In this document: positions 16,080-43,949 of the stretch, one piece after another
Layout of the letters: each line of letters opens with the position of its first letter
Numbering within the stretch: position 1 is the stretch's first letter
Source: Ignavibacteria bacterium
GTDB taxonomy: Bacteria > Bacteroidota > Ignavibacteria > Tepidaquicellales > OLB5
Length of the DNA: 64,000 nucleotides
Reading direction: 5' to 3'
NCBI GenBank assembly: GCA_017303675.1
Contig: JAFLBX010000002.1
Span: 819,091 to 883,090, forward strand
Notes under the pieces: generated by a model
Seen by the model: the letters and a program-made list of their open reading frames with translations, nothing else
The model's database searches: none
What the model was told of the DNA's origin: nothing
Position numbers and translations under genes: made by a program

Positions 16080-17858
16080 ATGCATATTATCGACTGGATC
16101 ATCATTGCTCTGTATTTCATTATCAGCCTTGGTATTGGTTTATACTATTACCGCAAAGCAAGCAGCAACACCGAAGATTTTTTCTTAAGCGGCAGAAAGC
16201 TGCCGTGGTGGCTTGCCGGGTTGAGCATGGTCGCCACCACATTTGCCGCCGATACACCGCTTGCAGTTGCTGAGCTTGTAGGGCAGAACGGAATTGCAGG
16301 CAACTGGCTCTGGTGGAACATGCTTATCGGCGGAATGCTCACCGTTTTCTTTTTTGCCAAGCTTTGGCGCAGAGCGGGCATATTGACTGATGTTGAATTT
16401 ATTGAGCTAAGATATTCCGGCAAATCAGCATCATTCCTTCGCGGATTCAAAGCGCTTTACCTCGGTATATTCATGAATTGTATAATTATGGGCTGGGTAA
16501 ACCTTGCAATGGGTAAGATAATGCTTGGTATGTTCCCAGAATATGTGAACCCCGGTAATGTAATTTATTTTCTTGCCGGCTGTATGTTCATTACAGCGGT
16601 TTATTCTGCAATATCCGGCCTGTGGGGTGTAGCAGTGACAGATGCATTCCAGTTCATACTTGCAATGACAGGCTGTATTATTCTGGCTATAATAGTTGTA
16701 AACTCACCGCAGATAGGCGGTATAACCGGTCTGCAGGAAAAACTGCCTGACTGGGCTTTAAGATTTACACCTCAAATTGGCGGTGAAACGGGAACTTCTA
16801 CAGGCACCGGCGGCATTTTAATGATGACAGTATCTACATTTCTGGCTTTTATAGGTATTCAATGGTGGGCAAGCTGGTATCCAGGCGCTGAACCGGGTGG
16901 CGGTGGTTATATTGCGCAAAGAATAATGTCCGCCAAAGACGAGAAAAACTCACTACTTGCAACGTTATTCTTTCAAGTTGCCCACTATTGTATCAGACCG
17001 TGGCCATGGATACTTGTCGGACTCTCCGCTATCGTGCTTTACCCTGAGCTTTCAATGGCAGATAAAGGACTTGGCTATGTTAAAGCTATGAACGACTTCC
17101 TCCCAATGGGATTGAAGGGTCTGCTGCTTGCCGCATTTCTTGCCGCATACATGTCAACAATTGCTACTCATCTTAACTGGGGCACTTCATATTTTGTAAA
17201 TGATTTTTATAAGCGCTTTATTTCCCCCGGCAGATCAGAAAAAAGCTACGTTACAGTTTCAAGGGTTGCTACAATAATATTTATGATAATTTCTGTTATT
17301 GTAACAATGTTCATGACAACAATATCCGGTGTATGGGCGTTTGTTATTGAGTGCGGCGCGGGTCTTGGCTTAATATTGATCCTGCGGTGGTACTGGTGGC
17401 GCATAAATGCGATATCTGAAATAGTTGCGACAGTAACACCATTTATTGTATATGCCATTCTTTATTTTGGTAACTTCGGAGTAAAATTCCCGGAAACATT
17501 ATTTATAATTGTACCTGTAACAACACTTGCATGGCTTGTTACTGTTTTCATCACAAAACCCGTTACAGAGGATAAGCTTTCCATATTTTATATGCGCGTC
17601 CACCCCGGCGGCTGGGGCTGGAAAAAATTCGCGCAGAAACACCCGCATATCAAAGCTGACCGCGGCTACGCAGTTTTGTTTATTGACTGGATGCTCGGGA
17701 TAATTCTGGTATACATGTATTTATTCGGTATTGGAAAAATAATCTTAGGTGATTTTATGGCGGGATTGATATATCTTGTTCTGGGCACAGCAGCCGGCTG
17801 GATAATCCTTAAGCATGTAAATTATCTCGGCTGGGATGAAGTTGTGAAGAAGAAGTAA
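16080..17858 (+). CDS. Sodium:solute symporter (SSS family)
   Basis: 592 residues with about 13-14 membrane helices, beginning IIDWIIIALYFIISLGIGL and SSNTEDFFLSGRKLPWW, the usual SSS opening (DFFLGGR). Family residues such as the ATTFAADTPL stretch and a sodium-site region TFLAFIGIQWW are visible. It should move an organic solute inward with Na+; sugar, amino acid or other cannot be told. It is long for a PutP-like member and closer to the sugar-transporter group. It has a good promoter at 15939-15969. The DUF433 gene follows after 48 nt and may be read through. Confidence 0.88.
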   Translation: MHIIDWIIIALYFIISLGIGLYYYRKASSNTEDFFLSGRKLPWWLAGLSMVATTFAADTPLAVAELVGQNGIAGNWLWWNMLIGGMLTVFFFAKLWRRAGILTDVEFIELRYSGKSASFLRGFKALYLGIFMNCIIMGWVNLAMGKIMLGMFPEYVNPGNVIYFLAGCMFITAVYSAISGLWGVAVTDAFQFILAMTGCIILAIIVVNSPQIGGITGLQEKLPDWALRFTPQIGGETGTSTGTGGILMMTVSTFLAFIGIQWWASWYPGAEPGGGGYIAQRIMSAKDEKNSLLATLFFQVAHYCIRPWPWILVGLSAIVLYPELSMADKGLGYVKAMNDFLPMGLKGLLLAAFLAAYMSTIATHLNWGTSYFVNDFYKRFISPGRSEKSYVTVSRVATIIFMIISVIVTMFMTTISGVWAFVIECGAGLGLILILRWYWWRINAISEIVATVTPFIVYAILYFGNFGVKFPETLFIIVPVTTLAWLVTVFITKPVTEDKLSIFYMRVHPGGWGWKKFAQKHPHIKADRGYAVLFIDWMLGIILVYMYLFGIGKIILGDFMAGLIYLVLGTAAGWIILKHVNYLGWDEVVKKK

Positions 17859-39787: not shown

Positions 39788-40054
39788 TCAATCCAGAGAA
39801 TCATACTGCACAATTTCCCATTTAAGGCTTTTGTGGTAAAATGAAAGCTCGCATATCAGGGATTCATCCTCGCATATAACGGTAAAGTGAGTTTTAAATC
39901 CTTCTTCATTATCCGGCAGCCGCCATGTATTGGCTATGCGGTGTACTTTGTACACGCGCCTATCCCACTTGAACTTAAGGATATCAACCTTTGAGTTGTG
40001 GAAATACGAAATTACCTCTATGGGTTTATATACCTGGTTTTGTATGTAGGTCAT
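39788..40054 (-). CDS. DUF6504-like small protein
   Basis: 88 residues: KPIEVISYFHNSKVDILKFKW, then VYKVHRIANTWRLP and a repeat of aromatic/basic strands to KSLKWEIVQYD. The pattern (basic beta-strands with conserved Trp, RRxYxVxRixxxW) resembles DUF6504, a family I associate with Y-family polymerase genes in other bacteria. That link is from memory and should be tested. Here it lies 0.9 kb from lexA and 2.6 kb from dinB. No promoter is evident. Confidence 0.5.
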   Translation of the reverse strand: MTYIQNQVYKPIEVISYFHNSKVDILKFKWDRRVYKVHRIANTWRLPDNEEGFKTHFTVICEDESLICELSFYHKSLKWEIVQYDSLD

Positions 40055-40124
40055 AACTAACTGATATCAAATATCAAAGCTCAAATGCCAAAAAGAGTTT
40101 GTTTTTTTTAGTGCCGCGTTCAGC

Positions 40125-40650
40125 CTTGTCATTCTGAACGAGTGAAGCGAGTGAAGTCACGAAGTGCTCTTCTATATCTAGTCGATAATTTTAATGTGAA
40201 TATAATCTCCACATTCAATCAATATAAAATCCAACTTTAAAAATAACGCTCAACTCCCCTGGATCCTTCCTTAGCAACAAGGCAGGCGCTGCGCTCAGGA
40301 TGACAATACTTTTTATCAGCCTTGTCATTCGGAACGAGCAAAGCGAGTGAAGTCACGAAGTGCTCTTCTATATCTAGTCGATAATTTTAATTGCATGTTG
40401 AAACTTCACATTTCAATTAATATTAAATCCAACCTTTATATAATACGCTCAACCTCCCTGGATCCTTCGCTTCGCTCAGGATGACAATACTTTTTATTAG
40501 CCTTGTCATTCTGAACGAGCGAAGCGAGTGAAGAATCTAGACGACGATATTTAAGTTTGGTGAATCATCACATTAGTCAAAACTACAATCAAACTTTATA
40601 TAATATCACTCAACTCCCCTGGATCCTTCGCTGCGCTCAGGATGACATGT
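40125..40650. repeat. Tandem composite repeat, three units of about 181-196 bp
   Basis: Each unit begins CTTGTCATTCTGAACGAGCG, continues AAGCGAGTGAAG, often TCACGAAGTGCTCTTC, an AT-rich part and ends GGATCCTTCG...CTCAGGATGAC. Units start at 40125, 40321 and 40502. The two ends are imperfect inverted copies of the dispersed palindrome family. Internal AT segments vary between units. Confidence 0.8.
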
Positions 40651-40658
40651 TTTACTCA

Positions 40659-40736
40659 CGACCCCGTCAGGGGTCGTACGTTTATAGAAAGGATATGCCA
40701 TTATCTCACGACCCCGTCAGGGGTCGCATGTATTGC
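40659..40736. repeat. Two copies of palindrome CGACCCCGTCAGGGGTCG
   Basis: Copies at 40659-40676 and 40719-40736, both with CTCA on the left. A shortened relative (GACCCCGTAGGGGTC) is at 42373-42388. Confidence 0.8.
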
Positions 40737-40802
40737 AAAACTGCAAATCCCCGTTCAAAATTACCCTGTAAATCCCCCTCAAAAAATTCCATTATTTCCT
40801 GC

Positions 40803-40840
40803 TTGACTTCGCTTAAAAAATACTGTATATTTATACAGTG
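40803..40840 (+). promoter_or_regulatory. lexA promoter overlapping an SOS box
   Basis: -35 TTGACT (40803-40808), 17 nt, -10 TATATT (40826-40831). The SOS box TACTGTATATTTATACAGTG (40821-40840) contains CTGT-N8-ACAG and overlaps the -10, so LexA would block RNA polymerase. It differs from the E. coli consensus at two of 20 positions by my alignment. A second ACAG half-site is in the direct repeat TTTATACAGT (40830-40839 and 40845-40854). Confidence 0.8.
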
Positions 40841-40873
40841 TAAATTTATACAGTATATTTAAACCCCCTCCGG

Positions 40874-40892
40874 CTCCCCCTTTAAGGGGGAG
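40874..40892. repeat. Palindrome in the lexA leader
   Basis: CTCCCCCT TTA AGGGGGAG between the promoter and the lexA ATG; a REP-like element of the CCCCTC...GAGGGG type, also seen at 42398-42413 and 52399-52447. Confidence 0.65.
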
Positions 40893-40916
40893 GGCTGATA
40901 AGGGTAAAGAGAAAAA

Positions 40917-41537
40917 ATGAAAAAACTCACTAAAAACCAGCAAAAGGTTGCGGATTTCATCAGCCGGTTCACAAAGAAACATTTGTATTCACCCACATAC
41001 AAAGAGATCGCTGAGCATTTCGGGGTGAACGTTAACGCCATTCAGCAAACAGTAGCGGCGCTTATAAAAAAGGATGCCCTTGAACGCTCCGAAGGCATTG
41101 CGCGGGGCTTAAGGATAAAGCCCGCGCCTGATGCGGAAATACTTCACGGTAGCACGGCGATGATAACCATTCCCTTATACGGCAGCGTAGCTGCCGGCGA
41201 GCCCATCTTTGCCGATAACAATATAGAAGGCTACATAACGGTTGATAAGCCCCAACGCTCCGCAGGCGAGCTGTTTGCCGTTACAGTCCGCGGCGATAGT
41301 ATGACCGATAAAAAGATCATTGAGCGTGATAAGCTGATAGTGCGCAAACAAAACACGGCAAACGACGGCGAAATTGTTGTTGCCCTGCTTGATGATGAAG
41401 TGACCGTAAAGGTGTTTAAGAAAAATAACGGTTCACCCTACCTTCAGCCGGCTAATAATAAGTATGACCCGATACACAGGCCGTTTAAGATACTTGGTAT
41501 TGTTGTGGGGCTGACACGGGATTTTACAGCAGCGTAA
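40917..41537 (+). CDS. lexA: SOS-response repressor LexA
   Basis: 206 residues. The N-terminal winged helix reads SPTYKEIAEHFGVNVNAIQQTVAALIKK, keeping Asn40-Ala41 of the recognition helix as in E. coli. The S24 peptidase part has the cleavage site Ala93-Gly94 (SVAAGEPIF), Ser128 (VRGDSMTD) and Lys165 (VTVKVF), all exactly 9 residues after the E. coli positions. It should repress SOS genes and self-cleave when RecA is activated. Its own promoter carries an SOS box. It is flanked on both sides by tandem composite repeats. An UmuD-like role is less likely because the DNA-binding domain is complete. Confidence 0.92.
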   Translation: MKKLTKNQQKVADFISRFTKKHLYSPTYKEIAEHFGVNVNAIQQTVAALIKKDALERSEGIARGLRIKPAPDAEILHGSTAMITIPLYGSVAAGEPIFADNNIEGYITVDKPQRSAGELFAVTVRGDSMTDKKIIERDKLIVRKQNTANDGEIVVALLDDEVTVKVFKKNNGSPYLQPANNKYDPIHRPFKILGIVVGLTRDFTAA

Positions 41538-41555
41538 CATGCTTTTGCTTTTGTA

Positions 41556-41578
41556 GAGACGTCCCGCCGGGACGTCTC
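41556..41578. repeat. Palindrome GAGACGTCCC GCC GGGACGTCTC
   Basis: First of two copies; the other at 42543-42565 has ACC in the loop. Both lie in the lexA-dinB interval. Confidence 0.85.
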
Positions 41579-41660
41579 AAGGCAGCGTAACGCTCTCTTG
41601 AAAATTATCGACTGGATTTAGAAGAGCACTTCGTGACTTCGGTCCGTTCAGGATGACAAT

Positions 41661-41810
41661 TTTTCTGTCATGCTGAACTTGTTTCAGCATCTGTCAGAAT
41701 ACCCATTGGATAATGAAATCAGGAAGCAAGTTTTTAGAATGGAATTAATAAATGTTAAATTGATAATTATTGAATCCGAAGGTAGACCCTGAACCAAGTT
41801 CAGGGTGACA
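41661..41810. repeat. Short inverted repeats of the dispersed family
   Basis: CTGTCATGCTGAACTTGTTT near 41667-41686 and GGTAGACCCTGAACCAAGTT near 41781-41800 pair with neighbouring CAGCATCTG and CAGGGTGAC arms. These are degenerate members of the family. No gene is seen here. Confidence 0.6.
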
Positions 41811-41870
41811 GGCAATTTTTTCACCCTGCAGCATAAGCAGAAAACTCTCCCGCAAAGATTTCTGCCTGCC

Positions 41871-41894
41871 AAAACGCACCTGCGGGTGCGTTTT
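41871..41894. repeat. Perfect hairpin AAAACGCACC TGCG GGTGCGTTTT
   Basis: 10-bp stem, 4-nt loop, within the lexA-dinB interval. Confidence 0.85.
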
Positions 41895-41980
41895 GAAGGG
41901 GTGAGAGTATAGCATATTCAGCTGCTTTTATATGATGATCTTATTTCATAGCTCAATGTTCTGTTAAAAATTATCGTCTA

Positions 41981-42345
41981 GATCCTTCGCTGCGCTCAGG
42001 ATGACAATACTTTTTATTAGTCTTGTCATTCTGAACGAGCGAAGCGAGTGAAGTCACGGAGTGCTCTTCTATATCTAGAGGACGATATTTAAGCTTGGTG
42101 AATCATCACATTAGCAAAGCTGCGATCAAGCTTTATTATAATACGCTCAACTCCCTGGATCCTTCGCTGCGCTCAGGATAACAATACTTTTTATCAGTCT
42201 TGTCATTCTGAACGAGCGAAGCGAGTGAAGTCACGAAGTGCTCTTCTATATCCAGACGACGATATTTAAGCTTGGTGAATCATCACATTAGTTAAAGCTG
42301 TGATCAAGCTTTGCATAATACGATCTTCGCTCAGGCTGACAAGGA
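41981..42345. repeat. Tandem composite repeat, second cluster
   Basis: A GATCCTTCGCTGCGCTCAGG end at 41981-42000, then two units starting CTTGTCATTCTGAACGAGCG at 42022 and 42199 (period 177). They repeat the same modules as at 40125-40650, including TCACGAAGTGCTCTTC and GACGATATTTAAGCTTGGTG. The last unit decays after 42320. Confidence 0.8.
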
Positions 42346-42372
42346 TTTACGTAAATATTAACAATGGTTCAA

Positions 42373-42565
42373 TGACCCCGTAGGGGTCGCACATATTCCC
42401 CTCTATAGAGGGGTGGCACCGCCGCAGGCGGTGACTGCTTGTCCCGCCATAGCGGGAGGGTGTGTGGCAATAATTTTACAAAGATTATTTTATTCCACAC
42501 ATAAAACGCTCTCTAAAAAATTATTGTCAGGCTGAAAATCAGGAGACGTCCCACCGGGACGTCTC
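42373..42565. repeat. Assortment of four unrelated palindromes and a repeat copy
   Basis: GACCCCGTAGGGGTC (42373-42388), CCCCTCTATAGAGGGG (42398-42413), CACCGCCGCAGGCGGTG (42417-42433), CCCGC CATA GCGGG (42443-42456) and GAGACGTCCC ACC GGGACGTCTC (42543-42565). The combined 42398-42470 block is related to 52399-52447. Confidence 0.75.
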
Positions 42566-42629
42566 TACACTAAAGCCATTTCAATCACACATTGCACCCC
42601 TTTCCTCTTAGGATAGGGGTGAGGTCATA

Positions 42630-43949
42630 ATGAATACAGCAAAAAATACAGGTAAAATAAGTTCATCATTCTTTATCCCCAGAGATGCCTCGCGTTCTGC
42701 GCATCTTTTTAAAAGGATAAGGATGATGCCGCTGTATTCCTTCCCCCACCACAAAGATCTTGGCAACACCACAGGCGCAAACCGCAACAAATATTTCATA
42801 CATCTTGATCTTGACGCGTTTTACGCGCAGGTAGAGCAGCGCGATAATCCAAAGCTGCGCGGCAGGCCTGTCTCAGTAGGCGGCGGCGAAGGCAACAAGG
42901 GTATCGTGATGACAGCAAGCTATGAAGCCCGGCGTTACGGCGTTGATATAGGCATGTCTGTAGTTGACGCGAAGCGGCTCTGCCCTGAGCTGATCTCCCT
43001 GCCCTGCTACGGCACAAAATACGAAGCCGTCCTGCAGAGCATTCTGTATGAAATATCAAAGCTGCTGCCTGAAGACTGCATTGAGCAGTACAGCGTTGAT
43101 GAATGCTTCCTTGATATTACGCCCGTGGCCCCTGATTATTTTAAGGCGGCAAAGCTTGCATGGCAGATAAAAAAGCTTATCCGCGATAAAGAAGATCTAA
43201 CGGCATCTATCGGGCTCTCGTTCAATAAATCCTACGCCAAAATGGCCACAAAGTTCAACAAGCCTGACGGGCTTACAATTGTGCGCGAAGAGAACCGTGA
43301 TATGATATACCGCCTGCCTGTAAAAAAGATGTGGGGCATAGGCCACCGTATGGAAATACGCATGCACTCCCTCGGCATACGAACAATTGGCGAGCTGGCG
43401 GAATCCAATTTCCATGCCATACATAAGGAGTTCGGTATCAACGGCGTTATACTGCGCAAAATTGCGCGCGGCGAAGATACAAGCGGCATCGCCTCGGGCG
43501 ATACCCCGCGCGTTGAAAAATCATTCACCCACAACCACACGCTTTCAACCGCAATATATGAAAGCGACAAGGCTGAGATGGAGATCAAACGGATGACAGA
43601 ATATGTATGCCGCAGAATGCGCGCGAAGGATCTGATTGCCGATCATGTGGGACTCTCGCTCCGTTACGAAGACCTTGGCTACCAGGGCGATAAGGTAAGG
43701 CTTTGCCATGCAACCAACAGCGAAAAGGAGCTTTTCCATAATGCTATGGAAATTTACCGCAGGCTCCCCCAGCCGGGTCCGTTATACAAGATAAGAACAT
43801 TCGGCATCTTTGTTTACGACCTCTTCAAGGTCACAGCTTACAATCTCGACCTTTTCAACCGCGATCATCTGATACCCTATAAGCAAATTGACCTGCTGAA
43901 GGATAAGTACGGTGAAAATATAATCCGTATGGGTTTGGGCAATAGCTGA
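42630..43949 (+). CDS. dinB: Y-family DNA polymerase IV (DinB)
   Basis: 439 residues. The catalytic residues are Asp60 and Asp62 in HLDLDAFYAQVE, and Asp157-Glu158 in YSVDECFLDIT, as in DinB. The palm-finger-thumb and little-finger regions (KSFTHNHTL, MAGTP-like helix MRAKDLIADHVGLSLR) are complete. The N-terminus is about 50 residues longer than usual; the ATG at 42630 has a GGAGGT-like site (TGAGGTCATAATG), while ATGs at 42723/42726 would give a shorter form. No SOS box is visible just upstream, although the gene lies downstream of lexA. It replicates past damaged bases, error-prone. Confidence 0.93.
   Translation: MNTAKNTGKISSSFFIPRDASRSAHLFKRIRMMPLYSFPHHKDLGNTTGANRNKYFIHLDLDAFYAQVEQRDNPKLRGRPVSVGGGEGNKGIVMTASYEARRYGVDIGMSVVDAKRLCPELISLPCYGTKYEAVLQSILYEISKLLPEDCIEQYSVDECFLDITPVAPDYFKAAKLAWQIKKLIRDKEDLTASIGLSFNKSYAKMATKFNKPDGLTIVREENRDMIYRLPVKKMWGIGHRMEIRMHSLGIRTIGELAESNFHAIHKEFGINGVILRKIARGEDTSGIASGDTPRVEKSFTHNHTLSTAIYESDKAEMEIKRMTEYVCRRMRAKDLIADHVGLSLRYEDLGYQGDKVRLCHATNSEKELFHNAMEIYRRLPQPGPLYKIRTFGIFVYDLFKVTAYNLDLFNRDHLIPYKQIDLLKDKYGENIIRMGLGNS

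Follow-up and report, generated by a model that had tools for sequence, protein, structure and literature searches.

In bacteria, LexA dimers bound to their operator obstruct RNA polymerase at the -10 element, and RecA on single-stranded DNA triggers self-cleavage of the repressor. The operator contacts of E. coli LexA include residues Asn41 and Ala42, and LexA operators change greatly in evolution, usually after duplication and between phyla. In colicin operons, overlapping SOS boxes are said to bind two LexA dimers, an arrangement linked to undetectable basal expression (PMC2994835). The non-canonical LexA of the Bacteroidetes has a distinct DNA-binding domain and the operators CTAA-N5-TTAG or GGA-N5-TCC (PMC8565304). 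That paper makes no mention of Ignavibacteria or Chlorobi, and our search of the open-licence literature turned up no work on LexA operators in either group.

Here, we describe a lexA locus from an Ignavibacteria bacterium, within a stretch of 64 kb that was analysed as a whole (the window). It shares with the E. coli and gammaproteobacterial systems the CTGT-N8-ACAG operator and its layout, a box over the lexA -10, the LexA fold, the Ala-Gly cleavage site, the Ser/Lys dyad, and the Asn-Ala of the recognition helix. However, E44 and E45 of the E. coli protein are Gln in the window LexA, the turn is one residue shorter, and the organism's recA has no box. Clostridia LexA is also about as similar to the window LexA as any proteobacterial LexA is, and in a tree with one gammaproteobacterial sequence the window LexA groups with its own order. 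As in colicin operons, two overlapping LexA boxes (here predicted from sequence) stand at a single promoter, but they are on lexA itself and in a lineage of the Bacteroidota phylum. The non-canonical LexA of the Bacteroidetes, a phylum-level neighbor, is likewise an S24 repressor of DNA-damage genes with a lineage-specific operator change, whereas the window LexA matches the canonical PF01726 and TIGR00498 and its predicted operator is CTGTA-N6-TACAG.

With a probability of roughly 0.85, we read the site as the operator through which a canonical LexA autoregulates lexA and represses the neighboring polymerase gene, an operator inherited vertically in the family, with an E. coli-type half-site reached by a change in specificity and with repeats inserted later; binding, repression, cleavage, co-transcription, and the direction of change are predicted parts of this reading. 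Two LexA dimers would occupy the overlapping boxes, covering the -10 and the start site, and would hold the transcription of lexA and of the downstream Y-family polymerase low until RecA on single-stranded DNA triggered self-cleavage at Ala93-Gly94 (Ser128/Lys165), ending repression. The expected outcome is strong self-repression of LexA and, ancestrally, repression of the translesion polymerase. In the window lineage, repeats have since entered two places, the stretch from the operator to the start codon and the gap between lexA and the polymerase gene.

The lexA promoter and its product

The lexA promoter (plus strand) has the -35 element TTGACT (40803-40808) and the -10 element TATATT (40826-40831), separated by 17 bp, as read in the sequence and found by a promoter scan; the -10 is also seen in the family alignment. 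It lies within predicted LexA box 1, CTGTATATTTATACAG (40823-40838), which has a single base, 40838, in common with predicted box 2, GTGTAAATTTATACAG (40838-40853), the two being 15 bp apart from center to center. The original prediction had placed CTGT-N8-ACAG on the lexA -10 of this same promoter, and the sequence is as it described, with a true lexA downstream; its account of a single box was right for box 1 and incomplete, since the second, overlapping box was not stated. The 20-mer at 40821-40840, TACTGTATATTTATACAGTG, had also been said to lie two bases from the E. coli LexA consensus, and we counted two mismatched positions against TACTGTATATATATACAGTA. The whole double operator, TACTGTATATTTATACAGTGTAAATTTATACAGTAT, is near-symmetrical and spans 36 bp (40821-40856), and 78 bp separate box 1 from the lexA open frame. 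In the 64 kb, CTGT-N8-ACAG was observed twice, against 0.46 expected by chance, with the second occurrence (41271-41286) inside the lexA coding sequence, and the lexA site is the sole perfect CTGTA-N6-TACAG in the window. What puts the lexA box well beyond chance is the recurrence of this double site, identically placed, in 11 lexA promoters (see below).

The TTGAC-17-TATATT type contrasts with the Bacteroidota-type promoters elsewhere in the window. These had been described as TTG-N20-TAnnTTTG, and with a spacing of N19-21 we found four in sense orientation against 0.23 expected, upstream of the genes starting at 16080 (+), 19417 (+), 30304 (-), and 50344 (-).

The lexA gene (40917-41537, plus strand) encodes 206 amino acids, with a winged-helix DNA-binding domain and an S24 peptidase. 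TIGR00498 matched over the full length with 174.4 bits (curated cut-off, 110.95), its single match in the 3.65-Mb genome, and the Pfam domains PF01726 (46.5 bits) and PF00717 (103 bits) were above their cut-offs. Judged by these matches, the protein is a canonical, bona fide LexA; recA is also present in the genome. In the alignment, A93-G94, S128, and K165 correspond to A84-G85, S119, and K156 of E. coli LexA. The offset of these cleavage residues is thus constant (+9), as had been claimed. The Asn-Ala of the recognition helix is kept too, outside that offset: a turn shorter by one residue puts it at Asn40-Ala41, one position before its place in E. coli.

Conservation in the family and the operator of the sister family

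Whole-genome searches found lexA, at least in part, in another 12 genomes from the same genus and family, and the lexA promoter was readable in 11 genomes, including the window organism's own and a second genus. All 11 kept TTGAC at the -35, the distance of 17 bp to the -10, and the pair of boxes with their 15-bp spacing. Mean column identity was 1.00 for TTGAC, 0.96 for box 1, and 0.88 for box 2, compared with 0.62 in the spacer and 0.55 downstream of the operator; the N6 centers of the boxes vary, and the flanking sequence diverges. The double pattern appeared without mismatch once per genome, at lexA, in 10 of these 11 genomes, and with one mismatch at lexA in the eleventh (G008), while among the matches listed there was none in genomes of the sister family. 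The gene order PEPCK-orf88-lexA-Y-family polymerase holds throughout the family.

The LexA tree that had been proposed as a check was built with 65 proteins and gave the family a support of 100/100 and the family plus its sister family 99/97. The one gammaproteobacterial LexA included sits far off on a long branch, and a scan of named genomes found no LexA outside the order closer than ca. 40% identity. Promoters of the TTGAC type were also found at lexA in most sister-family genomes and in several other families of the class. On these comparisons, lexA and its double operator are inherited vertically in this Ignavibacteria family.

The sister-family LexA is 43 to 49% identical and carries the recognition helix TIGTVQDH, compared with NVNAIQQ here. 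Its lexA promoters contain CCATA-N6-TATGG, mostly overlapping the start codon (operator sequence, TACCATATATTATTATGGTA), and this box had to be tested at other genes, since ATG G alone can form the right arm. Of the 11 genomes with a polymerase orthologue, 5 had the perfect CCATA-N6-TATGG at this gene and most others a variant such as CCTTA-N6-TAAGG, and a perfect CC[A/T]TA-N6-TA[A/T]GG preceded the orf88 orthologues in 18 of 19 genomes, 22 to 52 bp before the start and usually below a TTGA-type -35; these counts come from related genomes and are not independent events, with several genera and differing N6 centers included. The sister-family LexA therefore appears to use CC[A/T]TA-N6-TA[A/T]GG as its (predicted) operator. 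This motif and CTGTA-N6-TACAG have the same 16-bp layout, with 5-bp arms and a 6-bp center. Given this common layout and the box at lexA, polymerase, and orf88, the two families apparently share the LexA frame and the core genes and differ in their half-sites, which pair with Asn-Ala in the helix in the family and with Gly-Thr in the sister family. Two sister families whose main LexAs are closely related would then have different operators on the same frame, one of them identical to that of E. coli, and swapping a few helix residues could test how the DNA alphabet of a master repressor changes while its regulon is retained.

One sister-family genome (G029; L349-L360) contained about 25 perfect CCATA-N6-TATGG sites, many of them within promoters that read TTGACA..ATACCATATATTAATATGGnTAT..GTTCTTTGAAATA and precede what look like non-coding stretches. 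Rfam gave no match at these promoter loci.

Since the sister-family LexA uses CC[A/T]TA-N6-TA[A/T]GG, the E. coli-like box is most simply explained by convergence, and that the family reached the E. coli operator independently is plausible as the simpler reading compared with retention. Most likely, the CTGTA half-site arose by a change in specificity in the ancestor of the family, on the shared 16-bp palindrome layout; we infer this direction of change. An independently evolved SOS system, as the original prediction had put it, would then apply to the operator and not to the system, which has a bona fide LexA and a RecA. The reverse history, in which CTGT-N8-ACAG is the older state of the class, the sister family changed to CC[A/T]TA, and the likeness to E. 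coli is retention, seems unlikely to us. It is made possible by the class member L147, which has PNAA in its helix and TGT-N8-ACA on its -10, alongside a second copy, L163, with CTGTATGGCTATACAG. Set against this, unrelated palindromes are found in other families of the class (GTAGA-N6-TCTAC at L148 and CCCTA-N6-TAGGG at L150), and L150, a paralogue, has the VGTVQDH helix and the CCnTA half-site of the sister family, which suggests that this type is also old. The class genomes that carry these genes, G049 and G050 (L148-L150, L147, and L163), have several lexA-like genes each, some of them with a palindrome of their own close to the promoter, as if they held multiple repressors with diverged operators.

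In favoring convergence, we tentatively entertain a broader scenario, to which we give somewhat less than even odds. The LexA of the order may have switched operator alphabets on a fixed 16-bp frame, between TACC[A/T]TA (..VGTVQDH..) and CTGTA (..VNAIQQ..), with a few helix changes (Gly-Thr to Asn-Ala) sufficing to re-create the E. coli operator, and with a regulon pared to lexA, one translesion polymerase, and orf88, leaving recA outside.

A palindrome that LexA does not bind, and that belongs instead to the promoter or the mRNA leader, is a very improbable reading. Palindromes rich in A+T easily arise, and the genome has many near-matches within coding sequences, but here both boxes persist at fixed spacing through 11 promoters despite their changing centers, and a different palindrome of the same layout occupies the equivalent place at the sister-family lexA, polymerase, and orf88.

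Repeats and the lexA-polymerase spacer

In the window, lexA is flanked by dispersed repeats. The distance from box 1 to the start codon is 19 to 29 bp in six relatives, with differing longer inserts in the window genome and its closest genomes; the GC-rich inverted repeat in the lexA leader (40866-40893, plus strand) is, by comparison with relatives, a later insertion. Downstream, the spacer between lexA and the polymerase gene is 1,092 bp (41538-42629) and consists partly of dispersed repeats, while the sister genus has a corresponding gap of 9 bp, two other genomes have 68 and 116 bp, and five more have 341 to 639 bp. From these comparisons, the repeats, which had been taken as a sign of acquisition, are later insertions made after the locus formed, and the lexA-polymerase pair was ancestrally compact and then stretched by them.

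The recent acquisition suggested by the original prediction, taken here as a horizontal transfer of lexA and its operator from a CTGT-using proteobacterium, would account for a box two bases off the E. coli consensus, a promoter unlike the Bacteroidota-type ones of the window, and the surrounding repeats, but we reject it at the family level and consider it the least probable reading of all, because the LexA tree is vertical, gene order and double box are conserved family-wide, relatives share the box and promoter form in a vertically inherited lexA, TTGAC promoters extend to the sister family and beyond, and there are relatives without repeats at the same joints.

The gene after the spacer (42630-43949, plus strand) encodes a Y-family, Pol IV/DinB-like translesion polymerase (PF00817; best NCBIfam match, DNA polymerase IV), which adjoins lexA in every family locus reaching that far and which we infer to have belonged ancestrally to the lexA transcription unit. 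In the window organism, with its 1,092-bp spacer, co-transcription of the two genes is doubtful. A simple scan, which is weak evidence, found no plus-strand terminator in 40000-42700. The insertion at 41538-42629 possibly uncouples the polymerase gene from the SOS promoter.

The box-defined gene set

A genome scan for CTGT boxes at repair genes had also been proposed with the original prediction. The same box at recA would be expected of an E. coli-type SOS regulon, but in 14 family genomes neither type of box was found at recA with up to one mismatch, so that the SOS circuit would be unusual if the box defines the regulon; in the sister family, one perfect box was found among ca. 16 recA promoters. 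In the window organism's genome, no other promoter had a convincing CTGT box, and the regulon may therefore be the lexA promoter alone. Sites with up to one mismatch (CTGTA-W6-TACAG) or up to two were almost all within genes, as were the perfect sites in nine family genomes, and no non-lexA site recurred at orthologous promoters, except between close pairs. A wider CTGT regulon in this genome was rejected on these grounds. The umuDC pairs of some family genomes also have promoters without a box within one mismatch, and phage records searched with the operator gave A+T-rich chance matches only. Recurrent matches to GTGTATATTTYTACAG (L006, L009, L010, L016, and L024) are coding and a source of false positives for SOS-box scans: they sit near the C-terminus of 521-aa open frames and translate as GVYFYR, which we take to resemble the conserved stretch preceding the type IX secretion sorting domain of putative cargo.

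The divergent neighbor of lexA, orf88 (39788-40054, minus strand), encodes a small all-beta protein, as judged from its orthologues and a structure model. The orthologues (L373-L391) are conserved and 83 to 90 aa long. The model is confident (pLDDT, 90.8), and its fold comparison gave no match with an E value of <0.001 (best Z, 5.8). Assignment to DUF6504 was set aside as insufficiently supported, with 4 of 20 members matching weakly (best E value, 0.0066). In the family, lexA, polymerase, and orf88 are all neighbors, and the double operator lies between the divergent orf88 and lexA, with ca. 100 to 800 bp between it and the start of orf88. Only one of 11 regions upstream of orf88 had a clear promoter motif of the Bacteroidota type, and the double operator may also serve this gene. 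Defined by the predicted boxes, the core of the order is lexA, polymerase, and orf88, which provides an SOS gene set for an uncultured lineage and includes a gene, orf88, not previously linked to DNA damage in the open-licence literature. In the reduced genome G014 of the same family (2.0 Mb, 87% complete), neither lexA nor orf88 was found and the polymerase had only a distant match, absences consistent with a joint loss of the SOS core. In G018 and G022, a copy of orf88 directly follows a Y-family polymerase gene.
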